Source: Methanoregula sp.
Lineage (GTDB): Archaea; Halobacteriota; Methanomicrobia; Methanomicrobiales; Methanospirillaceae
Direction of reading: 5' to 3'
Length of the DNA stretch: 64,000 nucleotides
NCBI RefSeq assembly: GCF_028679125.1
Contig: NZ_JAJRCG010000005.1
Span: 62,001 to 126,000 of the forward strand
In this document: piece after piece, positions 1 through 63,180 of the stretch
Numbering within the stretch: position 1 is the first letter of the stretch
Layout: every line of letters begins with the position of its first letter
The notes under the pieces: generated by a model
Told to the model about the DNA's origin: nothing
What the model saw: only the letters and a program-made list of their open reading frames with translations
Databases searched by the model: none
Position numbers and translations under genes: made by a program

Positions 1-2
1 CG

Positions 3-899
3 GTAGCAAATGTAGATGCATCTATTTTGAAAATAAAACTGAATGTGGGCTTCGAATTTGCCTCAATGACCAAAATGGATGGTATTTCATTTATTGCCAA
101 TCTCGAAAAGATTCCCCTCAAAAATTTTTACAATTACTGGCGATTCGGTCATACTGTATTGCAGTCCGAAAGATTGTATTTAATAAAAAAATCATTTGAA
201 TTTGACCTTCCGATAAACGAGGCTGGAAAACCCGAAACCAATCACAATTTTTACTTGTTCATTTATGATTTTGTGGAAAAGAATGTTGAAGAATCACTTC
301 GCCTTTTGCGATTATTCAAAGAGGGAAATGTACACATTCCCTACTGGATCGTATACTATTTTGATAAAGATGAACCCATTGTTCTGTTTGCCCGAGGACT
401 ATCTTCATCACAATCACAAAATATCTATCATCTCGATGATATGGAAATTCAATCAGCTCAAAATTTTATTGAAATAACTCTGATTCCCAAACCACCCAAT
501 TACATAACTCTGGCACATGAGAACTATGAAGTATCATATTTTATCGATAATGATTCCCATGCGTTTTTGTCATTGATGATTTCCCTTGAGGTGCTTTTCA
601 AACCGAAACAATATCGAAATTTTTCTAGAATACTTTCTGATGAGGTCGGAATATTACTTGGGAACTCAAATTATGAAATTCAAAACATACGCAATGAGAT
701 TACCAGACTCTATGATAAACGATCAGAATTGGTTCATGAAGGAAAACCGGTTTTTCACTATGCTGGAGAAACAGATGATGTCAAAATTCTTCGACATTAC
801 ATCAGAGAATCTTTGAAAAAAATTATCCGGTTGGATCTTTCAAAGGATGATCTTCTGGAATATCTTGGAAAAATGAATGTCTGCAAGGAATCAGAATGA
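3..899 (+). CDS. Apea-like HEPN domain protein, 5' end probably outside the window
   Basis: The reading frame is already open at the first bases of the window, so the true start may lie upstream; the first usable internal start is a TTG at 27. The C-terminal third matches the Apea-like HEPN pattern: a helical 'SLEVLF' segment, then 'LYDKRSELVHEG' near the end. This contains an R-x4-H motif, the active-site signature of HEPN ribonucleases. The first 170 residues are not recognised. Base composition is strongly AT-rich compared with the genes from 3 kb onward, which suggests transfer. The stop overlaps the next start in an ATGA, so the two are probably translated together. HEPN proteins of this kind often act in defence or toxin systems, but no partner of known function is visible here, so the role is inferred only from the domain. 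Confidence 0.7.
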   Translation, partial: VANVDASILKIKLNVGFEFASMTKMDGISFIANLEKIPLKNFYNYWRFGHTVLQSERLYLIKKSFEFDLPINEAGKPETNHNFYLFIYDFVEKNVEESLRLLRLFKEGNVHIPYWIVYYFDKDEPIVLFARGLSSSQSQNIYHLDDMEIQSAQNFIEITLIPKPPNYITLAHENYEVSYFIDNDSHAFLSLMISLEVLFKPKQYRNFSRILSDEVGILLGNSNYEIQNIRNEITRLYDKRSELVHEGKPVFHYAGETDDVKILRHYIRESLKKIIRLDLSKDDLLEYLGKMNVCKESE

Positions 900-1210
900 A
901 ATATCGCGTAAATCACACAGGAATCGCAATGCGGAATATTTCCCATGTGGTCAATTATGTCAAAGATGATCCTGCAAGATGGTACAAAGTAAATTGGATA
1001 ATCGTCAGTACTTCTCATGCAATTTACATAACACACGGAGCACGTGGACATAAAGTAAGGCAGAAAATTCGCCATAAATTATGGAACATCGCTCAAAGAA
1101 AATATCCCGTTCTTAAACGGTATTCAATTCCCTATGAAGTTTCTGGGGATAGCAAATGCAAAGTTAAATGGTATTATCGGATTTGGGATTTCTTTTCGTT
1201 CTTCCGATAG
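896..1210 (+). CDS. Hypothetical protein coupled to the HEPN gene
   Basis: A 104-residue basic protein whose ATG overlaps the stop of the preceding HEPN-domain gene (ATGA), indicating translational coupling. No signal peptide, transmembrane segment or known motif is apparent; the sequence is rich in Arg, Lys, Tyr and Trp, which would suit nucleic-acid binding, but that is only a guess. It shares the AT-rich composition of its neighbours and ends in an aromatic 'WDFFSFFR' tail. The tight coupling suggests it works with the HEPN protein, for example as partner or antitoxin. That pairing is inference. Confidence 0.5.
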   Translation: MKYRVNHTGIAMRNISHVVNYVKDDPARWYKVNWIIVSTSHAIYITHGARGHKVRQKIRHKLWNIAQRKYPVLKRYSIPYEVSGDSKCKVKWYYRIWDFFSFFR

Positions 1211-1359
1211 GAAAAATAGCAGTTATCTCGCTAGAAATAAAAAATCGGTCTATTAGAAAATTGAATGATAATTAAACGTAATAGAAAACTATCGCATCCA
1301 TTTCGAATAATTAAAGTTACGCCAATCACCATTCTCAACAAAGTGAGAGATTTTATTCT

Positions 1360-2709
1360 ATGAAAAAATGCATGAATTGTGGAGGTCCAAACCCCAACCA
1401 AGAGATATATTGTGATTATTGTGGAGCGTTATTACCGAGTAAACCAACGAATAGGATTATTCACATTATTCGTGGACTGTTCGAAATATTGGTTATTAGA
1501 TTTCAAACAGGATATCTGCAATATATGAAAAAAGTGTCCAATCGGTTTTGCATTTTCCATATCTGGTGGAAATTTCTCTCGTTTTTTATTACATTTTTAT
1601 TCGTATTTATTCCTAGTGCGATTGGGGTCTATTGGATTTTCAAAACGGAAAACCTTCAGGAATTTTTCACAGGATATGATATCTCTATTTTAATATCCAA
1701 TTCGCAGAACAGCTTAATTAATTCAACATCATTTCAGAATTCTATACTCGGAAATCTGATTTATCCAAAGGGTATTACTGACATTGCATTTTTATTTGGT
1801 TGCATTATCGTGTATTGTGCTTTTTTCGAATATGTGAAAAACCGAAATATTTTTGATTCAAACCAAACGACGGATTATGCCAAATTGTTGAATTTTTTTA
1901 CATATGCGTTTTTTGCAAGCCTTTTTTATGATTGTATAATTATTTGGGGTTATTTTCAAGGATGGTTTAAAGATCTATCAAACGATCAATTCATTGAAGT
2001 TTTTTTCTTATTCACAATTGCATTGATGGCATTACTCAACATTATCATTGTCTACTATTTGCGCTCGAAAAATTTTGATAATTATGAAAATCTGGTAAAA
2101 CTATCATTCTACCTAGAAAGGATTAATTTTTCAAAAGATTTCCAAAGCCTATCTATTTACATATTCTTTTTGACGATTCTCGTTCCTTTTTTCGGGGCAT
2201 TATTATCATTTAATATTTTATCAATAATTTTCATTGATCTCCAACTTATCTACATAATTGCGATATTGGGTTTTTTAAATTCACTACCGAGAAATGTATC
2301 AATAATTCAATTTAAAACAGGGGATTCAATACCTGATGCATTTCTTTTACACGATTCAGAAATCGATTCTATCCTAGTTTTAACAACAGAGAATCAGAAG
2401 AAAAAAATTATGAAAGATACTATTTTTTGGACATCCAAAAATAATGAATTGCCACTAAATAACGTTGGAATCACACAAATTGGCAATATAACTATTGTAA
2501 AAAGTGAAGACTGCTTGAATTTGGTGAATGTTTCATGGCCATTATTGTTAATTTTCTCTGCGATTTCGATATTTCTAGGTTATGTCTTAAAAATACTACT
2601 TATTCTCCTTCCAGTTCCCGAATTACGAATTTTAACTTTGATTGTATGTCTGGTTTTTCTATTTTCGTTGGGTATTGTAGGCTATCTAACCTCCAGAGCT
2701 ATTCAATAA
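1360..2709 (+). CDS. Zinc-ribbon multi-pass membrane protein, unknown function
   Basis: 449 residues. The N-terminus has a typical zinc ribbon: CxxC at residues 4-7 ('CMNC') and a second CxxC about 14 residues on ('CDYC'), followed by 'GALLP'. Six to eight hydrophobic helices follow, starting near residue 70 and ending with two at the C-terminus, separated by a soluble stretch around residues 320-390. The zinc-ribbon plus membrane layout is common in archaeal proteins without assigned function. It is preceded by about 150 bp of AT-rich spacer, carries the same low GC as the two genes upstream and is followed by AT-rich intergenic DNA up to 2994, where composition switches sharply to the GC-rich core. 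I do not recognise a family beyond the zinc ribbon. Confidence 0.65.
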   Translation: MKKCMNCGGPNPNQEIYCDYCGALLPSKPTNRIIHIIRGLFEILVIRFQTGYLQYMKKVSNRFCIFHIWWKFLSFFITFLFVFIPSAIGVYWIFKTENLQEFFTGYDISILISNSQNSLINSTSFQNSILGNLIYPKGITDIAFLFGCIIVYCAFFEYVKNRNIFDSNQTTDYAKLLNFFTYAFFASLFYDCIIIWGYFQGWFKDLSNDQFIEVFFLFTIALMALLNIIIVYYLRSKNFDNYENLVKLSFYLERINFSKDFQSLSIYIFFLTILVPFFGALLSFNILSIIFIDLQLIYIIAILGFLNSLPRNVSIIQFKTGDSIPDAFLLHDSEIDSILVLTTENQKKKIMKDTIFWTSKNNELPLNNVGITQIGNITIVKSEDCLNLVNVSWPLLLIFSAISIFLGYVLKILLILLPVPELRILTLIVCLVFLFSLGIVGYLTSRAIQ

Positions 2710-2994
2710 TATCACGCATTTGTTGAGAAACAAATTTTTAATTGGAATGGGACAACCATTATTTAAAAAACACGCCGTTTGATAAGTCACTTTTCAGAAC
2801 CATGTGAGATTACTAGAATAGTTCAAAATTTACGAGGTCCCCATAATCCACATAATGAATGCGTGGTTTTAAATTCAAACCACAGTCTCATCTCACGCAA
2901 CATTACTTCGTACCTGTCCCCGCTCCGGAAACCCTTATCACCCCCCATGCCCTAGGAGCACGTAAACAACACCTCCACCCGCAGGGAACCGCAG

Positions 2995-4473
2995 ATGCTC
3001 GATAAACTCGATCTCACAAAGACAACAGACGAAACAAAATACGAGGCCGCACTCGAAGAGTACAAAGACCGGCTCGGTGTCCTCCAGCGTACCCTCCGCG
3101 AGAAGAAGATCCCCACCATGATCGTGATCGAGGGTTGGAACGCGTCCGGGATCACGATGGCCGTCCACGAGATCGTCCATGCACTCGACCCCCGGGGGTA
3201 TACCCTCTACAAAACCGATAAGCCCACGGAAGAGGAGCGGGTACACCCGTTCCTCTGGAGGTTCTGGCTCCGGATACCTCCCCGGGGGCGCATCACGATC
3301 TTTGCTCGGAGCTGGTACACCCGGGTGATCGCCGAGGAGTCCCATAAGCCCAGCTGGGAAAAATCCTTAAAAGGCCGTGCACGTCAGATCAACACCTTCG
3401 AGCGGCAGCTGGCTGATGACGGGACGGTCATCATGAAATTCTTCCTGCACATCACCAAAGCGGAGCAGAAGAGCCGGCTTGAAGGGAGGGAGGGAAACCC
3501 GCTGACCGCGTGCCTGGTGACGCCATCGATCTGGAACCTCCACCATCATTATGACGACGCACTCCCGGTCTTTGACGATTTTATCCAAAAGACGGACACC
3601 CCTTACGCTCCCTGGACGCTTGTCGAGGCCACTGACCGCAAGTATGCGATCCTGAAAGTCTATGCAACCATCATAAAAACCCTGGAGAAACGGTGCGAAG
3701 CCGCTGAAGACGGGAAGACAAGAAAGCAAAAACCCCTGGAGATGGCAAAGCCGAAAAAGAGCCCGGTGAAGCGCCACTCCCATCCCGACAAGGTCCTGAC
3801 CAAAGAGGAACTCCAGGAGACGCTCTCCCAGCTCCAGGTCGAGATGCTCGAACTGCACTATCTCCTCTTCAAGCGGAGGATCCCGCTGATCATCGTGTAC
3901 GAAGGCTGGGATGCCGCAGGAAAAGGGGGGAACATCACCCGGGTCACGCGCTTCATGAACCCGCTTGGCTATTACGTTGTCCCGGTTGCCGCGCCAACCG
4001 AACACGAGAAAGAACTCCACTACCTGCGGAGGTTCATACAATATTTCCCGATCGGGGGGGATATCGCGATCTTCGACCGGAGCTGGTACGGGCGCGTGCT
4101 GGTCGAGCGGGTAGAGAAGATCTGTCCCGAACCCGACTGGCAGCGGGCATACCAGGAGATCAACGAGATGGAAGAAGAGTTCGTGTACTCTTCCCGGGGC
4201 GGGATCGTCAAGTTCTGGCTGGAGATCAGCAAAGAGGAGCAGCTCAAACGGTTTAATGAACGGGCATCCGATCCCAAAAAAGTGTACAAAATCACGGAAG
4301 AGGACTGGCGGAACCGCGAGAAATGGGACCAGTACAATGAGGCAGTTGACGAGATGCTTGCCCGGACCAGCACGGAGATCGCACCCTGGACCGTTGTCGA
4401 ATCAGATGACAAGTGGTTTGCCCGGGTCAAGGCGCTCAGGACGATTATCGCGGCTGCTCACCGCCTGCTCTGA
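2995..4473 (+). CDS. pap: Polyphosphate:AMP phosphotransferase (tandem PPK2 domains)
   Basis: 492 residues made of two PPK2 (polyphosphate kinase 2) domains, roughly residues 15-230 and 275-490. The C-terminal domain has an intact Walker A ('EGWDAAGKGG') and Walker B/lid region ('FDRSWYGRVLVERVE'). The N-terminal copy is degenerate: its loop reads 'EGWNASGITM', lacking the GKG, and 'FARSWYTRV' replaces the Walker B aspartate with Ala. Two-domain PPK2 enzymes of this class phosphorylate AMP to ADP using polyphosphate, with only the C-terminal domain catalytic, which matches what is seen. The enzyme would be cytosolic and help recycle AMP. The gene stands alone, starts with ATG, and is followed by a T-rich stretch that could terminate transcription. 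It is the first gene with core-genome composition. Confidence 0.93.
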   Translation: MLDKLDLTKTTDETKYEAALEEYKDRLGVLQRTLREKKIPTMIVIEGWNASGITMAVHEIVHALDPRGYTLYKTDKPTEEERVHPFLWRFWLRIPPRGRITIFARSWYTRVIAEESHKPSWEKSLKGRARQINTFERQLADDGTVIMKFFLHITKAEQKSRLEGREGNPLTACLVTPSIWNLHHHYDDALPVFDDFIQKTDTPYAPWTLVEATDRKYAILKVYATIIKTLEKRCEAAEDGKTRKQKPLEMAKPKKSPVKRHSHPDKVLTKEELQETLSQLQVEMLELHYLLFKRRIPLIIVYEGWDAAGKGGNITRVTRFMNPLGYYVVPVAAPTEHEKELHYLRRFIQYFPIGGDIAIFDRSWYGRVLVERVEKICPEPDWQRAYQEINEMEEEFVYSSRGGIVKFWLEISKEEQLKRFNERASDPKKVYKITEEDWRNREKWDQYNEAVDEMLARTSTEIAPWTVVESDDKWFARVKALRTIIAAAHRLL

Positions 4474-11141: not shown

Positions 11142-11726
11142 TCAACTGTACGCCGGGACAACCGGGACCGCCGTCACGGTCATGACGGATGAATACAACC
11201 AGGCTGCAAGGAGAACGAGAAGGATCAGCGGGATGATGACGGCAATGACAACCGCAAGGATTGCTTTACCGGTGCTGAGTTCCTGAAGCTCGCGGATCCC
11301 AAGCACGCTTAAGACCAGAGACCAGAGCAGGAAGATGATCCCGATGAACGGGATCCAGCCAAGAAGCATGCGGGGCGTGCTGCCATAAATAACTGCATTT
11401 ACGGTCTGCATAATGCCCTTTCTGCCGCCGAGAATGTACACCCAGAGGTGAATCCATGCGGCAAGGATGAACGTTACGATAAACCCGCCAATCAGCATCA
11501 TGAAGAATACCAGGATCGGAACTGCCACGCCGAGCGACAGTCCGGCAAACATCTCCGTGTTCTCGATCCCGAATGCCGCGATCACCGCGGTCAGGATTGC
11601 ATCGATCAGGAGGAGCACGCCAAAATAGGAAAATACTGTTGTCAGATCCTCGGTTTTTGATTGCCGGAATGTCTCAACGGGATTCAGGAGGAATCCTTTC
11701 ATTTTGGTAAGCAACATATCAATCAT
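11142..11726 (-). CDS. Yip1 family membrane protein
   Basis: 194 residues. A short amphipathic start ('KMKGFLLNPVETFRQSK') is followed by five hydrophobic helices, the layout of the Yip1 domain. Typical features are the 'NPvetF' entry motif and 'GIRELQELSTGKAILAVVIAV' before the last helix. In archaea and bacteria these proteins have no settled function; they are integral membrane proteins. The ATG at 11726 is preceded by a GAGGA ribosome site six bases upstream. The gene is monocistronic and faces the repeat-bearing gap on its 3' side and a long gene-free stretch on its 5' side. Confidence 0.82.
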   Translation of the reverse strand: MIDMLLTKMKGFLLNPVETFRQSKTEDLTTVFSYFGVLLLIDAILTAVIAAFGIENTEMFAGLSLGVAVPILVFFMMLIGGFIVTFILAAWIHLWVYILGGRKGIMQTVNAVIYGSTPRMLLGWIPFIGIIFLLWSLVLSVLGIRELQELSTGKAILAVVIAVIIPLILLVLLAAWLYSSVMTVTAVPVVPAYS

Positions 11727-13229
11727 AAAAAATCCTCACGAATGAGTAGTTGTTGTATTTTTTACATTGATGGATATTTAAACGCTGGGAAGGTGGAAGA
11801 AAAGGAGGGAGAATGTTCCAACACCGGTTACGGATGCGTAGGGGGCTAGGAAAACCTCCCGACACGTTTGATGCCGGACGGTTTGATCCCCTCGGTTGCA
11901 GATGTTACCGGGAAACAGGGAGGAACTGGTGGTGCTGGAGGGTATCCGGCCGGTCTGAACCGTGTCCTGCAATGATTTTTCCGGGTGAACCTGCAATCTC
12001 ATCCAGCGGAAATTTTGTGAAAATGGTTACGGAAAACACGGACGGATAAATTTTTTTTTACAAATCATACCGGTAAATTCGGGGAGGATTTTTCACGTGG
12101 CGGGTATTTTTTAAAATTCTTGTACAGTATCAGGTTTTTTCAGAAATTTTTTTCCAGTCTATTGCGGATAGATTGCGAAATTTTTTTGGGAAATTTTTAA
12201 AAAATTCCGGAGAACGGATTCGATCGATTGCTCTCTTTCAATTCAGTGTCAGGTCAGGAAAAACTCCCGTGTCTGAACCGGATGAATCTCCACTGGTTAC
12301 TGCTTTGCCACGCTCTCCTTAAGGGGCCTGCACCCCCTCCCCCACCCATCCGGGCCCGCAGCAGGCCCGGATCGCCTCTTTTGGAGGTAACCCGACCGGC
12401 CTGTTTTGAGGTATTTTGCGGGAAGTGTCAGGGAAAATCCCTGCACTGCGCCCGATAGGAAAACGGGCGTTTTTCCATGGAGAAAAACCGGCCTGTTTAG
12501 AACCTGTTTCTTTTGAGGATAGGTTGCTGCCGCAGGGTTTGGGATATGGGCTGGAGTTTACGTCGCCGATCGTCATTATCCGACATGCCATGATCACCAT
12601 GAGAGACCTGCATTCCCGTAATCGAATCCGGCCCTGCTACGGCCCCGGATGTATCCCTTTTCCGGAACCCGAGGGAATAATTCCGGAAAATGGGGAAATG
12701 AATCCCGCAGTTCACTCGTTTTTACGTCGGTGGATCAGAGGGCATATTTAGCCACATTATAGCGGCCGAAAAGGAAGGGTCGCGGGTTCCATGAGGTTTT
12801 GGAAGGTGATCTGCGGATGGAGGGGGTGCCATGGCTGATTTGGAGAGGTGTAGGGGATCTACGACGGAGAAATAGGGGTTGCCGATGGGAAGAGTGTGGT
12901 CGTGATCCTATTCTGGGAGATGTGATCCGGGATCTCTCGCTCTCCGTCGGAGAATTCCTGCCGAACTCACCCCCAACCCGCCCGGGAGACATAGTTCCTC
13001 AAAAAAGAGACAGGGTTAGCTCAATTTTAGGTCATTTTTACGTCAGAGACCAGAGACAGAGTCTGGCAGGGTTACAGCGGCCGATCGCCCGGAAAACTGG
13101 CTGGTGGACGTGCCGGAAGAGGGAAAAACCTGTTTTGATTTTAAAATATTATCACACCGTGAAATTTTTTATTACCGGAAATTATTTTCAAATAAATTTT
13201 ATAGGTTCAATACTAATGGAGAATTTGTT
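11727..13229. other. 1.5-kb gene-free stretch before the TerB island
   Basis: No frame here has convincing protein character. The stretch mixes long A/T runs (12045-12200) with GC-rich, low-information sequence (12300-12980). It ends in AT-rich DNA from 13130 that runs into the TerB-family gene; a ggaga site at 13218-13222 serves that gene's ATG at 13230. It may be decayed coding DNA or an insertion boundary, but I could not recognise a parent gene. Confidence 0.5.
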
Positions 13230-15590
13230 ATGGCAGGGTTTATTGATTCTGTCCTAGGTTTATTTGGAAAGAAGAGTGAGTCGTCTTCACAACACAAAGA
13301 CTCAACGAGTACAGAAAAATCTTCAACTAAAATCATTTCCGAAGAAGATTACAGCAATATTCAAATTGTGGATCAAGTCCCCGGTTCTCAAAATATTTCT
13401 AAAACCGATGAACCAGATGATCAATATCAGTCGATTACGGTTCATGGACATTCTATCTACGATCCACCTGTTTCGGTTCCAAGTTATGCAACATCAGGTA
13501 TGACATGGGTTGGAAATGGTCAGTCGATCAGTGTTCAGAGATTTACCATTCACAATCCACTAATGTACTGGTCAAATAACAATTATCCAGATGCTTCATG
13601 TATTGCAACATCGTTGAAGGTCGAAAAACCTGAAAATACAAATGTACCTTCATTACCGTATTGGCCACAATATTCCGGACTAACTCCTGCCCAGAGATGG
13701 AAATATCTCTCGTGGCTCTCGCAGGGAAGAAATAATGACCTGGATGAAATTGGATATGCGTTTATCTTTTTTTATGGTCTTGAGAGACGGGCAATTATTG
13801 AAAAGAAAGACTTTGATATAATTTTAGATGAGGTCAATCGTCTCTTACTGAAGTATCCAACATCGAATTCATTCAACTCATACCTGAATCAATTTAAAGC
13901 GTATATAATTGGCTCTCAACTCAAAGGAATGAACGACGAGGATATCAGGAGATATTTTCCCTCTCTCGATAACCTTGATGAGAGATCAACGAAAATTCTT
14001 ATCTCCTGGTTTTGGTCGAATAATCGGTCACTTCAATGGAAATTATGCTATTCACTTTCAAAAAATTCTCCCGAATTCCAAAAAACCAATATTACAAAAA
14101 AATCCCCTGACTTATTGACGCAATTATTCCGAAAGAAATTCCAACAAAATTTCCCTGACGGAATACAATTTATTTCCGAATTTGAACAATTCCCTTTAAA
14201 TTACCGGCCGGCCAGTCCATCACTTTTACAGTACGGGGGTTACTCCCAAGGCTCGAATTTTATAGAACCGTTATCATTACCTATCCCAAGTCTCAGTTCA
14301 CCACCATTTCAAACCCTGAAAAAAATCTGGATTGATTGCATTGATGAACTTAAACCCGTTGTAAATAAGTTGAATAAAACAGATGGATCGATAACAAGAG
14401 AAGTTTACAGTCTTCTTCCTGATGCGTTAAAAGACGACATTTCCCATCCGGAATTGGAATTATGGCGCAATTTTATCTCATCCAGACCACCCGTTGATGG
14501 ATCAATTATCCTTCAGGTTTCTGATATCGCTCACCTTATCGGGATTGAGAAAAGGAATGTGCTTACATCAAGTCAGAGTAAAACGGTAACCTCGACGGCA
14601 AGTGATTTTGGATGGGCTCTCGTGCCGGATCAAACCATTTCCGGTACATCATATAAGTGGGACGATACGGTTGCACTTATCCCCATCGAAGAGAGAGAGA
14701 AATCAGTTTCAGAAAATTTCCAGAGTGCAGCTTTAATTTTTGAAATGGCACATGGGATCGCGGCGTCTGATGAAACGGTAACTGAAACTGAAGAAAAATA
14801 TCTTCATAATTTTGTTTCTGAACAATTCTCATTGAACCCTTCAGAGATCACATGCCTCAAAGGACTTCAAAAAGTTCTGGAAATTTCGCCGCCAGCCCTC
14901 TCAAAAATTGGTAAACGTTTGAGTAAATACCTGAGTCCGGATCAAAAAATTGCTCTCGCTAACTTCCTCGGAGATATTGTTCTTCTTGATAATAAATTCG
15001 TAAAGGAAGAACAAAAAGCACTGAAAACGGTTTTCAAAGCACTCGAAATTAATCCGACTGTTTCTGAGGAACTAATCAAAAAACTCCTTATCGGACAGAC
15101 TCCTGAAAAACCTGTAACCGTACTCAAATCCGAAGGGATACGAAGTGGAGAAATAATTCCGCCACGAGAGATTACGCCGGAATTCACCATAAACCGGGAA
15201 AAATTAAAACAAACAATGGAGGATACCCGGGCGGTCCAGAATATTCTTGCTTCCGTTTTTGAGCAGGAACAGGAAGAGATAATCCAGAACATGGAACCGG
15301 AAGTCAAAATCCCGGATGCTTCGATACCGATTGATGGCAGGCTCAAGGAGTTAGATCTTCCATTCCCGTCAGAGACCATTCCTATGCTGGATATAAAATA
15401 TCTCTCGATGTTACACGATATTATGAAATCGAACGAGTTGAGCCAGGACGACTTTACCGGTCTCGCCAGAAAACATAACCTGATGCCGAGAGCCGCATTC
15501 GACGACATTAATACATGGGCCGATGAGGAACTGGGCGATTTCCTGCTGGAAGAAAGCGAAAGCCGTATCATAGTCAATTACAAGAAGTGA
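13230..15590 (+). CDS. TerB_N-TerB-TerB_C domain protein
   Basis: 786 residues from the ATG at 13230, chosen because a GGAGA site sits 8 bases upstream and 'MAGFIDSVLGLFGKK' is a natural start; the frame is open further upstream. The disordered first 90 residues precede a TerB_N domain (about 95-300; signature 'YSGLTPAQRWKYLSWLSQGR' and 'FYGLERRAII'). A TerB-like helical domain follows (about 505-640) and a TerB_C domain occupies the C-terminus (about 690-786, 'FDDINTWADEELGDFLLEE'). Tellurite-resistance TerB domains bind metal and lie at membranes or in stress-response complexes; the N/C-flanked form is associated in the literature with ATPase and helicase genes, as here. GC content is well below the core genome, suggesting transfer. 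First gene of a three-gene operon. Confidence 0.88.
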   Translation: MAGFIDSVLGLFGKKSESSSQHKDSTSTEKSSTKIISEEDYSNIQIVDQVPGSQNISKTDEPDDQYQSITVHGHSIYDPPVSVPSYATSGMTWVGNGQSISVQRFTIHNPLMYWSNNNYPDASCIATSLKVEKPENTNVPSLPYWPQYSGLTPAQRWKYLSWLSQGRNNDLDEIGYAFIFFYGLERRAIIEKKDFDIILDEVNRLLLKYPTSNSFNSYLNQFKAYIIGSQLKGMNDEDIRRYFPSLDNLDERSTKILISWFWSNNRSLQWKLCYSLSKNSPEFQKTNITKKSPDLLTQLFRKKFQQNFPDGIQFISEFEQFPLNYRPASPSLLQYGGYSQGSNFIEPLSLPIPSLSSPPFQTLKKIWIDCIDELKPVVNKLNKTDGSITREVYSLLPDALKDDISHPELELWRNFISSRPPVDGSIILQVSDIAHLIGIEKRNVLTSSQSKTVTSTASDFGWALVPDQTISGTSYKWDDTVALIPIEEREKSVSENFQSAALIFEMAHGIAASDETVTETEEKYLHNFVSEQFSLNPSEITCLKGLQKVLEISPPALSKIGKRLSKYLSPDQKIALANFLGDIVLLDNKFVKEEQKALKTVFKALEINPTVSEELIKKLLIGQTPEKPVTVLKSEGIRSGEIIPPREITPEFTINREKLKQTMEDTRAVQNILASVFEQEQEEIIQNMEPEVKIPDASIPIDGRLKELDLPFPSETIPMLDIKYLSMLHDIMKSNELSQDDFTGLARKHNLMPRAAFDDINTWADEELGDFLLEESESRIIVNYKK

Positions 15591-15617
15591 ATTAATTGTC
15601 GGTGAGTGAAGCGGATC

Positions 15618-16964
15618 ATGGGAAAACTTAAACAAAGAGAACGGGACGCGATTATCCAGTCCCTGAGTACGGGGGTTGTTCCAAGGATTGGCCTTGAGCA
15701 TATCCAAGTCGGAAGGAAAAACGAGGTCAACGCAATTTTATCTGACCTGGAAAAAATTCAGAATGATGGGGCGACGATCCGCTTCATCATCGGGCGTTAT
15801 GGTTCGGGTAAGAGTTTCTTCTTAAACCTCTGTCGGATAGTAGCCCTTGAAAAAAAATTTGTCGTGGCCCAAGCAGATATCAGTCTTGAGAGACGGCTAT
15901 ATTCATCGGATAATCATGCACGTGCACTCTATACGGAATTAGTCCACAATTTTGCAGTAAGGGCAAAACCGGAGGGCGGTGCCCTGTCTGGGCTTATCGA
16001 ACGATGGATTTCTGATCTTGATCAGCGTCTCAGGAAGGAGGGAAAGAGTACTGATGAAATCCTTCAACAGATCCCTCAAGAATTGAAATGCCTTCAGGAA
16101 TTTGTCAGCGGGTATGATTTTGCAACCGTTCTCGGTAAGTATTTTGAAGGATACCAGAAAGGTGACGATGCTCTCATGGCTTCAGCAATCCGCTGGCTCT
16201 CGGGAGAATATTCTACCAAGACCGAAGCCCGGCAGGATCTCGGCGTCAGGACGATCATTGAAGATGGCAATATCTATGATTACCTGAAATTGTGGGGTCG
16301 GTTTGTGAAGATGGCCGGGTATTCCGGGCTCCTTGTCAACCTTGACGAGTTGGCAGTACTGTCTCATCGCCTTAATAATGTCCAGGCTCGCAACTCGAAC
16401 TATGAAACAATCCTCCATATCATCAATGATTGCAACCAGGGTGGCGTATCTGGAATAGGATTTATTTTCGCCGGGACTGATGAATGCCTCAAGGACCAGC
16501 GGAGAGGTCTTGTCAGCTATGGGGCCCTTGCCAGCCGACTCGTCACAAGAGATGATTTCAATGTGGCAGGATTGAAAGATTTCAGCGGACCGGTTATCGA
16601 ACTAGAGAACCTGTCAAAGGAAGACACCTATGTCCTGCTTTACAACATCAGGAATGTCTTTGCTTATGAGGATCCGGCAAAATATCTTATGCCAGACAAA
16701 GGCATCGAAAGTTTTCTCCAGCACTGTCAGAAAACACTGGGGGCAGAATTCTTCCTGACCCCCAGAGATATTGTCAGGAGTTATGTCCGCATGCTTTCAA
16801 TTCTCGAACAAAATCCCGGGACCTCGTGGGAGGTCTTGTTGAGTAATACTTCAATCGAGAAATCTCAGGACAATTTAGAACCCTGTGAAAACTCGGAAGA
16901 AAATATTCCGAAAAAAACAATCGTATCAAAACCGGCTGATGAGCTGGTATCCTTCAAATTATAA
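15618..16964 (+). CDS. DUF2791/BrxC-BrxD-like P-loop ATPase
   Basis: About 448 residues; the frame is also open to a GTG at 15606, 15 bp after the TerB-protein stop. The start of the domain, 'RERDAIIQSLSTGVVPRIGLEHIQVGR', is the DUF2791 signature. A Walker A 'GRYGSGKSFFLNL' lies near residue 60 and a Walker B-like 'LLVNLDELAVL' near residue 235. The family includes the BREX ATPases BrxC/BrxD and ATPases found with Lhr-like helicases. The gene sits between the TerB-domain protein and the helicase with 17-30 bp gaps, so the three very likely act together. The last 50 residues are charged and low-complexity. Defence or DNA-processing function is inferred from family and context. Confidence 0.87.
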   Translation: MGKLKQRERDAIIQSLSTGVVPRIGLEHIQVGRKNEVNAILSDLEKIQNDGATIRFIIGRYGSGKSFFLNLCRIVALEKKFVVAQADISLERRLYSSDNHARALYTELVHNFAVRAKPEGGALSGLIERWISDLDQRLRKEGKSTDEILQQIPQELKCLQEFVSGYDFATVLGKYFEGYQKGDDALMASAIRWLSGEYSTKTEARQDLGVRTIIEDGNIYDYLKLWGRFVKMAGYSGLLVNLDELAVLSHRLNNVQARNSNYETILHIINDCNQGGVSGIGFIFAGTDECLKDQRRGLVSYGALASRLVTRDDFNVAGLKDFSGPVIELENLSKEDTYVLLYNIRNVFAYEDPAKYLMPDKGIESFLQHCQKTLGAEFFLTPRDIVRSYVRMLSILEQNPGTSWEVLLSNTSIEKSQDNLEPCENSEENIPKKTIVSKPADELVSFKL

Positions 16965-16981
16965 TTTTTCCGGAACACCTC

Positions 16982-19132
16982 ATGGAAAAAACTGCTTTTT
17001 CATACCTGCATCCAACAATTCAGGAAAAACTGTACAAGATGGAATGGTCGGAACTCAGGCCGATTCAGACGGATGCAATCAGGGCATTGTACATAACCGA
17101 TCATAACCTGATCATTTCAGCAAAAACTGCTTCCGGTAAAACAGAAGCTGCATTCCTTCCGATCCTCTCACTGATTGTCGAGAAGAAAGGAGCCGGAGTT
17201 TCAGCAATATATGTCGGTCCCCTGAAAGCTCTTGTCAACGATCAATTCCAGCGTCTTGAAAAGTTATGCGAACTGGCAGAAATTCCAGTCTTCAAATGGC
17301 ATGGGGATGTTGGAAGCAGCGGGAAGGCGAAATTTTTGAAAAATCCATCCGGAGTTCTCCTCATCACGCCGGAATCAATCGAGTCTTTGTTTATCAATCA
17401 TCCCAATCAGCTCTCCAAACTTTTTGGTTCGCTCTCGTTCATTGTTATTGATGAGATGCACTCGTTCATCGGTTCCGAGCGGGTAGCACACCTGAAAAGT
17501 TTGTTGTCCCGGGTAATCCACAAAAGTCCGAAAGGTCTCCGGCTCATCGGCCTCTCTGCAACCTTTGGTGATCCGGAACTGGTAAAAAAATGGATGCTGC
17601 CTCGTAGCCCTGAGTCTATCAGGGTTATTGAAGACAAAAACGAAAAGAAAGATTTTCAGTATCTCGTCCGGGGTTATGTTCTTGAAAATCCATCCAAAGA
17701 CGAACAAAAGAAAGAGGACCTGACCGCGTCACCGGTGATCGTAGATATTGCCCGGTATTTCTATGGGAAAACCGCTCTGATTTTTGTAAATAGTCGGGAA
17801 CTCCTTGAATTCTATACGGACAGTACGAGAAAATATCTCGAACGAAAGGGCCTGCCGGATTGTTTTCGGATTCATCATGGCTCACTCTCAAAGAGCGAAC
17901 GTGAAGATACCGAAGATGCTCTGAAATCGAACCGGCCGACGGCAACATTCTGTTCGAGTACTCTTGAGATGGGAATCGATGTCGGGAATGTTTCCTGCAT
18001 CGGTCAGATTGGAGCTCCATGGTCGGTAAATTCACTTACCCAACGCCTCGGCAGAAGCGGACGTAAAGAAGGAGAGACATCCATTCTTATCATGTTCATC
18101 ATTGAGAAAGAATCTAAAGAGGATTCTATTGTTGAACGTTTACATCCAGAACTGCTCCGGGCGGTTGCGATGTCAGAGATGATGATCGAGAAATGGAATG
18201 AGCCGCCTCATATTGGATATTTCCATTTTTCAACATTGATCCAACAGGTTCTCAGTGTCATCAAAGAGCACGGTGGATCAACTGCAAAGGATCTCTTTGA
18301 TACGCTCGTAAAAGACGGAGCGTTCCAGAATGTTCAGCTAGAAGATTTCCTCCGGATTTTACGGAATATGGGAGCCGTTGACCTGATCGAACAGGACGAG
18401 AGAGATGTCCTGATTCTTGGTCTTGAAGGTGAAAAAATTGTCAATAATTTTGAATTTTATTCGGCATTCACAACACCGAAAGAGTTCAGTGTCGTGCATA
18501 AGGGAGGAAAGATTGGGAGCATCCAGTCTGCCCCGGATCTTGAGACTCGCCAGTTCCTGATTCTTGCGGGGCGTCGCTGGGAAATCCTTGAGATTGATTT
18601 CAAGCGATGTGAAATTCTTGTCGAGCCTTCAAAAGGAGGTAAAGTGCCAAAATATTTTGGCGGGGGCGGTGCGGATATTCATCACCGTATCCGGAAGAAG
18701 ATGCACGAGATCGTGATCTCTGATTACGTTCCCGCATATCTCAATCTTCAGGCGCAGGTCATGCTCAAAGAAGCACAGCATGCAGCCCGAGAAGCCGGGC
18801 TTGCGGAGAATCCATTTGTTGTCGATGGGCCTTTCACATACTGGTTTACCTGGATGGGGTCGGCAAAACACCGGACACTCTTCACATTAGGAAAAGAGTT
18901 TGCCAAACTGCATGTCGAGGATGAAGAGATCGCATTAAAATTCAAGGGCGTCTCGCCATCCCAGATTCTGGAAAAATACAAAGAGATGCTTGCTTCGTGT
19001 CCATCTCCGGAAGAGATTGCTGAAAAGTTTCAGGGCAGGACACGTGAAAAATACGATCAGTTTGTACCGGAGAATCTACAGATTGCGGAGTATGCAAGAA
19101 AATATATTGATACTGAGATTTCCCTTCCTTGA
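16982..19132 (+). CDS. DEAD/DEAH-box superfamily II helicase (Lhr/BrxHII-like)
   Basis: 716 residues with complete helicase motifs: Q-motif region 'ELRPIQTDAIRAL', motif I 'AKTASGKTEAAFLP' (near 47-60), Ia 'VGPLKALVNDQ', II 'IDEMH', III 'LSATFGD', IV 'ALIFVNSRELLEFY', V 'STLEMGIDVG' and VI 'QRLGRSGRK'. The C-terminal half carries an Lhr-like winged-helix and beta region ('QSAPDLETRQFLILAGRRWEI'). Such helicases translocate on single-stranded DNA. It follows the ATPase gene by 17 bp and completes the operon. In BREX type 2 and related systems a helicase of this kind pairs with a DUF2791 ATPase, but no PglX methylase or PglZ gene is present here. Confidence 0.92.
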   Translation: MEKTAFSYLHPTIQEKLYKMEWSELRPIQTDAIRALYITDHNLIISAKTASGKTEAAFLPILSLIVEKKGAGVSAIYVGPLKALVNDQFQRLEKLCELAEIPVFKWHGDVGSSGKAKFLKNPSGVLLITPESIESLFINHPNQLSKLFGSLSFIVIDEMHSFIGSERVAHLKSLLSRVIHKSPKGLRLIGLSATFGDPELVKKWMLPRSPESIRVIEDKNEKKDFQYLVRGYVLENPSKDEQKKEDLTASPVIVDIARYFYGKTALIFVNSRELLEFYTDSTRKYLERKGLPDCFRIHHGSLSKSEREDTEDALKSNRPTATFCSSTLEMGIDVGNVSCIGQIGAPWSVNSLTQRLGRSGRKEGETSILIMFIIEKESKEDSIVERLHPELLRAVAMSEMMIEKWNEPPHIGYFHFSTLIQQVLSVIKEHGGSTAKDLFDTLVKDGAFQNVQLEDFLRILRNMGAVDLIEQDERDVLILGLEGEKIVNNFEFYSAFTTPKEFSVVHKGGKIGSIQSAPDLETRQFLILAGRRWEILEIDFKRCEILVEPSKGGKVPKYFGGGGADIHHRIRKKMHEIVISDYVPAYLNLQAQVMLKEAQHAAREAGLAENPFVVDGPFTYWFTWMGSAKHRTLFTLGKEFAKLHVEDEEIALKFKGVSPSQILEKYKEMLASCPSPEEIAEKFQGRTREKYDQFVPENLQIAEYARKYIDTEISLP

Positions 19133-20105: not shown

Positions 20106-20822
20106 TCATTTTTTATCTGTCGTTTCAGCAACAGAAACCGGAACAAAATTCTCGATGAACACCTGCCGGCCCCCGATGGTCGCTGCCGTCACGGTCTTCA
20201 GCACCGGGACCGCTGCCCCGGCACGGTTGAGTAAAAAACGCTCGGAATGATCGATGGTCATGCCCAGATCGCTGATCGGGCACGCCCCTTTTTCGGCAGG
20301 ACAGACGAACCTGTGGCAGGAATGCCCGATCATCTCTTTCTCGGTGTACCCGGTGAGCCGCTCCGCTGCCGGGTTCACCGAAATGATCTCGTGCGAAACC
20401 GCATCAACAACCATGATACCGGCCTGGACATGCTCCCAGATCGTGCGGAACTTTTTTTCAGAGCGTTCAATCTCGCTCTGCTGGACGGAGATCTGCAGGG
20501 AGAGAACCGTCGTCACCGCTGCGATAATAATAAAGACCGCGACCCGGGCGAATGCCGCAACGGTATTGTAGGGATTGTACCCGGTAATGGCAACCACCAG
20601 TCCAAAATAGATGATGCCCAGCACTGCAGAAAAAACAACGCCTTTTTTCTGGTACCAGTAGGCTGCAAGGATAATGGGAACATAATAGATGTGCGTGAAC
20701 ACGGTCTGGATACCGTTCTGGAGACAATAGGCAGTGAGGAGAATCACTCCGGCCGAAAACACAAGGAGTAACACCGGCCTCCAGTACTGCCGGAACGTAC
20801 TCTCAACAGGGATCTCATCCAT
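20106..20822 (-). CDS. Membrane PAS-domain sensor protein without kinase
   Basis: About 238 residues from the ATG at 20822; a GTG three codons upstream is possible, but the ATG has a GAGTGAT site before it. The N-terminal 100 residues form four hydrophobic helices ('VLLLVFSAGVILLTAYCL' onward), then a short coiled linker ('LQISVQQSEIERSEKKFRTIWEH'). The PAS domain runs to the C-terminus ('AGIMVVDAVSHEIISVNPAAERLTGY'). It contains 'GHSCHRFVCPAEKGACPI', a Cys/His cluster common in methanogen PAS domains that could bind metal or a cofactor. No kinase or output domain is present, so it must signal through a partner. It may also be a truncated kinase. Confidence 0.82.
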   Translation of the reverse strand: MDEIPVESTFRQYWRPVLLLVFSAGVILLTAYCLQNGIQTVFTHIYYVPIILAAYWYQKKGVVFSAVLGIIYFGLVVAITGYNPYNTVAAFARVAVFIIIAAVTTVLSLQISVQQSEIERSEKKFRTIWEHVQAGIMVVDAVSHEIISVNPAAERLTGYTEKEMIGHSCHRFVCPAEKGACPISDLGMTIDHSERFLLNRAGAAVPVLKTVTAATIGGRQVFIENFVPVSVAETTDKK

Positions 20823-20954
20823 GATAATCACTCTTTTGGGGAACGGTAAAAACCTCCCGTATCCCGCTCAACGGGCCGGGGTGTGCCGGAGATTTCCGGA
20901 TCTGCGTTCCTGTTCTGGTTCGTTCTGCTCTGTACATAGGATCCTCCCTGACCG

Positions 20955-32167: not shown

Positions 32168-32746
32168 CTATCCGATAATCCCTCTCCTGCGTAATTCAAA
32201 ATAACATCTCGCACAAGCGTCCACATCGGCCCCGGCATTATGGCTGCCGGTAAATTCCTCCTGGAACAACTGGAGGTGCAACTCGGTCAGGGTCGGCCAC
32301 TTGTATCCATTCCCGGAGGACTTGGGAATCCTGCACCACGAGACAATCTCCCGGGGTTTCATGGTGCAGAATTTTTGTTTTTCCGCGAGCGTTGTTTCCA
32401 GCCGGCACCGCAGGAATTCCGTAGTGATTATCGGCAGATCGAAATCGACATTATGGGCAACAACCATTGTCGCCTTCGCGACATCCGCATTGAACTGCGG
32501 GAGCACCTTGTGGAGCGACACGCCTTCAGCTTTCGCCCGCTCGGTCGTGATCCCGTGAATCCTGGCAGCGTCCATGGGGATGGTGAAGTCCGTCGGGTAA
32601 ATGATGAAACTGTTCTGACTTTCGCGGTTGCCCTCGTGATCGTATAACGACCAGGCCAGCTGGACGATCCGGGGCCACTTCCCCATATCGTTTGCTGCGG
32701 AGTATTTCGGGAGACCGGTGGTTTCGGTATCGATGAAGAGAAGCAT
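32168..32746 (-). CDS. DEDDh 3'-5' exonuclease
   Basis: 192 residues forming one exonuclease domain of the DNA polymerase III epsilon type. Exo I 'LFIDTETTG' at the N-terminus supplies D and E; Exo II 'VVAHNVDFDLP' supplies D; Exo III 'HNAGADVDACARC' supplies H and D. The length is that of a stand-alone proofreading or repair exonuclease. It is cytosolic and likely involved in DNA or RNA end processing. The gene is monocistronic. Between it and the Trypco2-like gene is about 230 bp of non-coding sequence. Confidence 0.92.
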   Translation of the reverse strand: MLLFIDTETTGLPKYSAANDMGKWPRIVQLAWSLYDHEGNRESQNSFIIYPTDFTIPMDAARIHGITTERAKAEGVSLHKVLPQFNADVAKATMVVAHNVDFDLPIITTEFLRCRLETTLAEKQKFCTMKPREIVSWCRIPKSSGNGYKWPTLTELHLQLFQEEFTGSHNAGADVDACARCYFELRRRGIIG

Positions 32747-62316: not shown

Positions 62317-63180
62317 ATGACGGATCTCGATCCTTTTTTCCATAAAATAAATTCCTGGTCCTTCACGAGGCACCGGGTCTGGAACCGGTGCCAGCGCCAG
62401 TATTATTTTGAATACATTGCCCCGTACGTCAAATCCAGTCCGGTCGTGGATCCCGAAAGGATCCGGTACCTCAAGAACTTCACGTCAAAATTTGTCGTGC
62501 AGGGCCAGCTCATTCACGATATCATCGACCAGCAGATCCAGTTGCATTGCGAGAACAAGCCAATGGATCCGGCCACGGCAATGAGCGAGTTCTCAAAGAA
62601 AGTTTTGCGGTACAAAAATATCGGCGGCGAAACATTCGCCGAGTACCACAATGGCGAGACGATCCCCTCATCGTTTTATGCATACATTGATGAGAACGGG
62701 AAGACCTGCCTCCAGACATTCTTCGGGAAATGGCCGGACTACAAGGGCCGGGAATGCCTCAGGCACGAGACGTTCGATCATTTCAAAATCGGGGATGTCG
62801 GCGTCATCGTCAAGGTGGATTTTATCGGGAAGATGCCGGACGGCACGCTCCTCCTCTCGGACTGGAAGACCGGGCGGGACGATGATGAATACGAGTCGGA
62901 ACTCCAGATGGCAGCGTATGTGCTCTGGGCAATGCAGTATTACCGGAAAAGTTGTGACGACATCCGCACCGAACTGGTATTTCTGAAGACCGGTGCGACA
63001 AAACCCTATTCCTTTTTCTGGGAGCAGTTATCCGAGATCCAGGAGATGATCCCCCGGGAGTTTGGGGAGATGAATGCGAGTTACGAGTACGGGGATTTCC
63101 CGGCAAAGCCTTCGCAGCGGGAGTGCCTGAGCTGCAAATTTGCGGAGGTTTGTCCGGATAACAGGATACAAAAAAACTGA
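62317..63180 (+). CDS. PD-(D/E)xK nuclease, Cas4/RecB-like with Fe-S type Cys
   Basis: 287 residues. N-terminal 'SFTRHRVWNRCQRQYYFEYI' is the first Cys of the RecB/Cas4 cluster; the nuclease core is 'GVIVKVDFIGKMPDGTLLLSDWKTG' with Asp, Asp and Lys, followed by 'ELQMAAYVLWA' (QxxxY motif). The C-terminus 'CLSCKFAEVC' supplies three more Cys, completing a four-Cys set for a [4Fe-4S] cluster. This is the PD-(D/E)xK family of stand-alone nucleases in DNA repair. No CRISPR or cas genes are seen nearby. Confidence 0.88.
   Translation: MTDLDPFFHKINSWSFTRHRVWNRCQRQYYFEYIAPYVKSSPVVDPERIRYLKNFTSKFVVQGQLIHDIIDQQIQLHCENKPMDPATAMSEFSKKVLRYKNIGGETFAEYHNGETIPSSFYAYIDENGKTCLQTFFGKWPDYKGRECLRHETFDHFKIGDVGVIVKVDFIGKMPDGTLLLSDWKTGRDDDEYESELQMAAYVLWAMQYYRKSCDDIRTELVFLKTGATKPYSFFWEQLSEIQEMIPREFGEMNASYEYGDFPAKPSQRECLSCKFAEVCPDNRIQKN

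Follow-up and report, generated by a model that had tools for sequence, protein, structure and literature searches.

Shango was named and tested in papers of 2022-2023, and its P. aeruginosa PA14 version comprises genes for a TerB-like protein, an ATPase and a helicase, in that order, which are reported to act against phages in PAO1 (PMC10250203). According to the same paper, PA14 Shango in PAO1 lowered plating 10-100-fold for many phages, not all, and protected liquid cultures; it also cites another report of Shango in E. coli, where two phages were affected approximately 10-fold. In a 2026 review, the mechanism of Shango is given as unknown. Archaeal Shango is already in print, since PMC11291487 counts the system among 22 whose frequency in Asgard archaea exceeds that in other prokaryotes, and PMC13321033 reports mixed-class genes in Halococcus with a likeness to those of several systems, Shango being one of them. 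In literature searches on Shango with archaea or methanogens, no paper on Shango in methanogens was recognised by its title, and a search by domain names returned no paper combining TerB, DUF2791 and a helicase. Described relatives of the ATPase and the helicase are BrxD and BrxHI, which occur linked in BREX type 2 and for which the authors of PMC12839542 suggest a loading or activating role of BrxD on BrxHI; BrxHII is described there as a different helicase of the Swi2/Snf2 type. SngC, BrxHI, DruE and DpdJ have been grouped in a clade that is potentially distinct (PMC12278908). Hachiman (HamAB) likewise employs an SF2 helicase as its defence motor (PMC12278908), however, HamA is a nuclease, whereas Shango has no recognised nuclease. 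Bunzi, described as another TerB-domain defence system (PMC10952713), is likened to Shango by that domain.

The window, i.e., the whole stretch of 64,000 nucleotides that was analysed, almost certainly harbors a complete Shango locus (SngABC) of a Methanoregula-like methanogen. All three PADLOC family models matched, SngA with E = 8.5e-56, SngB with 5.8e-160 (531 bits) and SngC with 3.3e-237 (788 bits). On the same ATPase the BrxD model reached 159 bits (5.5e-47), and on the same helicase the BrxHI model reached 433 bits (4.3e-130), so that the Shango models exceeded them by more than 350 bits in both cases; the NCBIfam BrxD equivalog, at 156 bits on SngB, stayed below its cut-off of 350. Pfam identified TerB_N (7.6e-28), TerB (8.7e-9) and TerB_C (2.7e-18) in SngA, all over cut-off, BrxC_BrxD (5.5e-141), which we take to be the former DUF2791, in SngB, and DEAD (2.7e-32) plus Helicase_C in SngC, where additional ResIII and Cas3-like_C_2 matches presumably represent helicase parts. 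No nuclease domain was found in the three proteins in Pfam at E up to 1. The genes are adjacent and follow the order A-B-C on one strand, as in PA14 Shango. The window copy thus shares with described Shango the succession of TerB-domain protein, ATPase and DEAD/DEAH helicase, matches to all three family models and the lack of a recognised nuclease or methylase; it differs in its archaeal host, in an SngA without the N-terminal hydrophobic stretch of 15/20 copies, and in that its defence activity is a predicted one. SngB is 87% identical to SngB of two Methanoregula sp. MAGs, and the Shango-bearing genomes G071 and G085 belong to the same genus as the window genome.

The original prediction had described a compact operon for a TerB_N-TerB-TerB_C protein, a BrxC/BrxD-like (DUF2791) ATPase and an Lhr/BrxHII-like helicase, akin to a BREX core but devoid of methylase, PglZ and nuclease genes. 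The open reading frames on the + strand, the Pfam matches and the relation of two of the proteins to the BrxD/BrxHI pair bear this out. The helicase is indeed of the SF2 type (DEAD, Helicase_C), however, it fits the SngC model best, and second best a PADLOC model that bears the label 'BrxHI|BrxHII' and is described as BrxHI. Similarly, the proposed minimal phage-defence system does appear, by its sequence, to be a compact defence module, but not a new one: as the three genes are those of Shango, which was named and tested earlier, the locus represents one more ordinary example of it. It is a clear archaeal case, complementing the activity tests made in bacteria.

Features of the window and of loci in related genomes (L, locus; G, genome; C, contig)
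Feature	Position	Strand	Basis or remark
sngA: TerB_N-TerB-TerB_C protein, 786 aa, ATG	13230..15590	+	Pfam, PADLOC SngA, alignment A1, hydropathy
sngB: AAA+ ATPase, BrxC/BrxD family, ATG 15618	15618..16964	+	Pfam, PADLOC SngB, alignment A2
sngC: SF2 helicase, 716 aa	16982..19132	+	PADLOC SngC, alignment A3
Yip1 gene	11142-11726		nearest gene on one side of the Shango locus
PAS gene	20106-20831		nearest gene on the other side of the Shango locus
Second AT-rich island	window 1-3000		GC 32-35%, three ORFs
PD-(D/E)XK (Cas4-like) gene	window 62317-63180
DEDDh-type exonuclease gene	window 32168-32746
PD-(D/E)XK and DEDDh family genes	L004:6002-7467		directly before Shango
AddAB-like and Mre11/Rad50-like genes beside Shango	L019:1780-6209, 12685-19001; L020:690-5128; L021; L025:6652-13090; L026
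Divergent SngA, 566 aa	L027:6179-7879		G068
SngA frame starting with apparent resolvase	L044:6069-7985		viral contig
SngA split over two ORFs	L049:5633-7985		viral contig
Orphan BrxD behind TPR-repeat gene	L030:5940-9141		G000:C6 about 108.9-112.1 kb
BrxHI-like helicase	L031:7478-9727		G000:C8 about 37.5-39.7 kb

The genes are separated by 27 bp (sngA-sngB) and 17 bp (sngB-sngC), as had been predicted. The frame of sngB is open already from GTG 15606, but the ATG at 15618 was preferred because the relative at L004 starts there. The predicted contrast in base composition was likewise recovered: GC content in 1-kb bins was 38-39% at 13-15 kb and 45-47% at 15-19 kb versus 50-59% in the surrounding bins at 3-13 kb and 19-31 kb, and values below 50% also occurred in remoter bins of the window, at 0-3 kb and in several bins beyond 31 kb. 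The flanks said to be gene-free (11.7-13.2 and 19.1-20.1 kb) hold short ORFs only, and two of these, of 111 and 168 aa, had no match in Pfam (E 0.01) or PADLOC (E 0.001). In the scans made, none of the genes adjoining the window copy was a defence gene, and no PglX/BrxX methylase was found beside the ATPase at this locus, where Yip1 and PAS genes are the nearest neighbours. No empty site could be defined, as in G048 and G073, both single-contig genomes, over 1 Mb separates the best matches to Yip1 and PAS. No direct repeats resembling integration scars were found at the operon borders; two short inexact pairs lie inside the operon. Sigma-70-type promoters and terminators did not score above shuffled sequences, the models being ill-suited to archaea. 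Elsewhere in the window, the three ORFs of the second AT-rich island had no PADLOC match, and in Pfam only the third gave a match, to a zinc ribbon and below the cut-off. The window also carries a PD-(D/E)XK gene and a DEDDh-type exonuclease gene, which stand apart; genes of the same Pfam families and with similar N-termini occur side by side at L004.

Both motor proteins possess intact motifs. SngB carries a Walker A (GRYGSGKS) and a Walker B motif (LDE), and G63, G66, G68, K69, D247 and E248 were invariant in the 15 rows of alignment A2, one of which is an orphan BrxD. The helicase motifs of SngC are TASGKT, DEMH, SAT and QRLGRSGR, with T49, G52, K53, D157, E158, H160, SAT and QR-GRSGR invariant in the 15 rows of alignment A3, including one BrxHI-like row. 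No solved structure matched SngB at E 0.01. For SngC, among the matches listed, the top helicases read as Lhr-like and many others as Brr2, and the protein also resembles ligase-associated and Lhr-type helicases, with scores below their cut-offs.

SngA is the most variable of the three proteins: alignment A1 (12 rows) has a mean column identity of 41%, compared with 63% for A2 and 55% for A3, which comprise 15 rows each; A1 lacks the two most divergent archaeal SngA and A2 and A3 each include one BrxD or BrxHI-like row. The two proteins left out of A1, L018 (G129) and L027 (G068), are too divergent or lack TerB_N; in Pfam at E 0.01, no TerB_N match was obtained for SngA of G068 and no TerB match for that of G129. 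Only the C-terminal part of the SngA model matched the G068 protein, a short SngA which precedes a normal SngB and SngC. Within A1, D514, E521 and E594 were invariant and D587 nearly so. As read from the sequence, the TerB domain contains two D-x6-E motifs, D514/E521 and D587/E594, and these acidic motifs presumably have a metal-binding role. Residues 227-508, which separate the TerB_N match from the TerB match in Pfam, carry no domain assignment. Among solved structures, SngA gave one weak match, to the TerB part (2h5n).

To describe the N-terminus, a hydrophobic stretch was defined as 19 residues with a mean Kyte-Doolittle value of at least 1.8 within the first 120 residues, a threshold that was set after seeing the values. 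Such a stretch was present in 12/16 SngA and in 3/4 plasmid SngA, hence in 15/20 copies, among them that of G068 from the same genus as the window genome, and most SngA copies are therefore likely to possess a membrane anchor. A strong stretch was absent from SngA of the window, G071, G085, G101 and Azospirillum; sngA of G071 starts at a contig end, and its N-terminus may be cut. Docking at the membrane is not universal, as the proteins of the window, G085, G101 and Azospirillum have no such stretch. The N-terminus of the window protein, MAGFIDSVLGLFGKK, contains no membrane helix by hydropathy and could form an amphipathic helix.

Co-occurrence of the three proteins, with the TerB protein as the third part, had been proposed as a test, and it was observed: of the 199 genomes of the class, 13 carry a strong SngB match, the same ones carry a strong SngC match, and each has SngA next to these genes. 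The SngB model, with matches counted at E 1e-3, matched in 131/199 genomes and exceeded 450 bits in 13 (lowest 462.7, next 180.8), and the SngC model gave some helicase match in 199/199 and more than 700 bits in 13 (lowest 708, next 425). SngA was matched in 18/199 genomes, 13 of them those with strong SngB and SngC, while G189, G057, G160, G088 and G151 showed weak partial matches without strong SngB or SngC. In 14 named control genomes, SngA was matched in none, SngB in one (Deinobacterium chartae) and SngC, a general helicase model, in 13. A script recovered the A-B-C order on one strand in 12 fetched relatives, and the same order was present in a Kiritimatiellae bacterium. SngA of G129 was missed by BLAST with the window protein, yet it is the ORF before SngB and contains TerB_N and TerB_C. 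In a sample of the phylum, full SngA together with strong SngB occurred in 4/294 genomes, all belonging to the window's taxonomic order; two more genomes had weak partial SngA, and G228 had a match of 224 bits to the SngB model without SngA. Thus, the window locus combines membership by sequence, the three-gene order and intact ATPase and helicase motifs with a sporadic spread, and in these methanogens the three genes keep together and are scattered, as defence genes are.

Relatives were also found on mobile DNA. A tblastn search with SngB matched 693 of 72,556 plasmid records, a number which may include BrxD-type relatives. All four bacterial plasmid records that were opened contained genes for TerB_N, ATP-binding and helicase proteins in that order, and in one of the four Shango adjoins type I restriction-modification genes. 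In IMG/VR, SngB identified six loci; in five of them an ORF of 731-737 aa, read as a helicase, directly follows, and at L045 the contig ends there. The corresponding search with SngA yielded no confirmed relative. In two viral contigs the sngA gene looks as if interrupted, by an apparent resolvase at the start of the frame (L044) or by a split over two ORFs (L049). In a phage collection, 21 of 50,697 records matched SngC, one of them over 80% of its length. In a tree of SngB, which was built with no BrxD from BREX loci, four orphan BrxD rows were separated from the Shango rows with support 100/100. The sequences of Kiritimatiellae and Cetobacterium were unresolved among the archaeal ones, and G129 clustered with those of bacterial and viral origin (98/99). 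Both G129 and G059 have long branches, and a mutual attraction between G059 and the BrxD rows is possible.

How might these proteins act? We tentatively favor a direct action on viral DNA as a plausible reading. SngB, an ORC/Cdc6-like AAA+ ATPase, would assemble on invading or replicating virus DNA and load SngC; by unwinding or translocation, this SF2 helicase would stall virus replication and expose ends to host nucleases, Shango itself being without a recognised nuclease. SngA, with its two acidic TerB motifs and a likely anchor in most copies, would serve as sensor and scaffold, gating the system by keeping SngB-SngC from acting until infection, in many cases at the membrane. Alternatively, the system might be abortive, with SngA as an effector that harms the cell once SngBC sense viral DNA and with SngBC not acting directly. 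The frequent occurrence of a likely membrane anchor in SngA, its high variability and the reported recurrence of TerB-type proteins in defence would agree with such a role, but no toxin or pore domain was found in SngA in Pfam at E up to 1, and we consider this possible, if rather unlikely.

The surroundings of related copies may bear on the source of the nucleases. The locus had been predicted to be an isolated island, which holds for the window copy, but some relatives lie beside restriction-modification, OLD-like, AddAB-like or Mre11/Rad50-like genes and others beside ordinary-looking genes; L004 (G085), for instance, has OLD-like, MoxR, VWA and NYN/OST-HTH genes near Shango. The AddA/B and Mre11/Rad50 labels are our own and are based on Pfam matches, 'AddB' on PDDEXK_1, 'AddA' on UvrD-helicase plus PDDEXK_1, 'Mre11' on Metallophos and 'Rad50' on AAA_27/AAA_23. 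In G023 and G111 an AddB-like gene comes after SngC in the same orientation; in G071 and G085 it is on the opposite strand, 4-6 kb off. At E 1e-10, AddB-like matches were present in 10/13 Shango genomes and 103/199 overall, and in four of these 10 the gene lies within 10 kb of Shango. The four cases represent two lineages rather than four independent events, and G023 counts by construction, as the query was its AddB-like gene, picked for standing next to Shango; several of the other six genomes are drafts in which the genes fall on separate contigs. Mre11/Rad50-like genes occur near Shango in G023 (Pfam-scanned) and G043 (recognised by N-terminal sequence only). No AddB-like match was obtained in the window's own genome at E 1e-10, and an AddB-like gene is therefore not required for Shango.

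These neighbours could also suggest that the locus is a host operon for DNA maintenance or repair, in which an ATPase-loaded helicase works with recombination nucleases and defence is secondary. AddAB-like or Mre11/Rad50-like genes within about 10 kb in 5/13 genomes (G023, G111, G043, G071, G085), the likeness of SngC to ligase-associated and Lhr-type helicases and the wide occurrence of BrxD/BrxHI-type relatives in the class point in this direction. However, the presence of Shango in so few genomes of the class and the phylum sample, its AT-rich locus, its relatives on plasmids and viral contigs, the lack of an AddB-like match in the own genome and the protection against phages reported in tests (PMC10250203) all argue against it and render this reading improbable compared with direct action in defence. 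That the locus is a degenerate or minimal remnant of BREX type 2, with BrxD and BrxHI left over beside an unrelated TerB protein, is extremely improbable, since the matches to BrxD and BrxHI, a pair linked in BREX type 2 (PMC12839542), score far below those to the Shango models, and BrxD also below its NCBIfam cut-off, the TerB partner is constant (13/13), SngB stands apart from the orphan BrxD rows in a tree that holds none from a BREX locus, and the own genome, given as 94% complete, had no PglZ match at E 1e-3; a minimal BREX is rejected on the model scores and this missing PglZ match. What the locus and BREX type 2 have in common is an adjacent pair of homologous AAA+ ATPase and SF2 helicase, presumably loader and helicase. 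PglZ was matched in 18/99 of the class.

The likeness of SngB to BrxD extends to a second group of genes. Second-tier matches to the SngB model, of 134-181 bits, occurred in 117/199 genomes of the class by our own row count, and the 131 SngB-matching genomes consist of these 117, three with strong matches only and 11 with weaker matches only. The own genome's second-tier ATPase, the one such match tested, was assigned by PADLOC to BrxD with 415 bits, and the second-tier matches in the 117 genomes may represent the same BrxD gene. The second helicase of the own genome is BrxHI-like (PADLOC, 529 bits). As the TPR-linked orphan BrxD shares genomes with an orphan BrxHI-like helicase, and the own genome has no PglZ match, Shango and BREX type 2 might both have recruited an older loader-plus-helicase module of genome upkeep; Shango would then be a membrane-gated version relying on host AddAB-type nucleases, which it adjoins in several relatives. 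We regard this scenario as speculative and unlikely. Together, the likely SngA anchor, the AddAB-like neighbours and the widespread TPR-linked BrxD-type ATPase offer testable ideas on the mechanism of Shango.

At L030 the orphan BrxD gene lies directly behind a TPR-repeat gene, and L032, L034, L036, L038, L040 and L042 are relatives of this locus. A BrxD-type gene stands directly behind a homologue of the own TPR gene in 7/7 genomes, i.e., the own genome and six single- or two-contig relatives, the position of BrxD at L042 being taken from the class-wide SngB-model scan. The BrxHI-like helicase at L031 is located apart from BrxD, and similar BrxHI-like helicases, also apart from BrxD, are present in the six relatives looked at.
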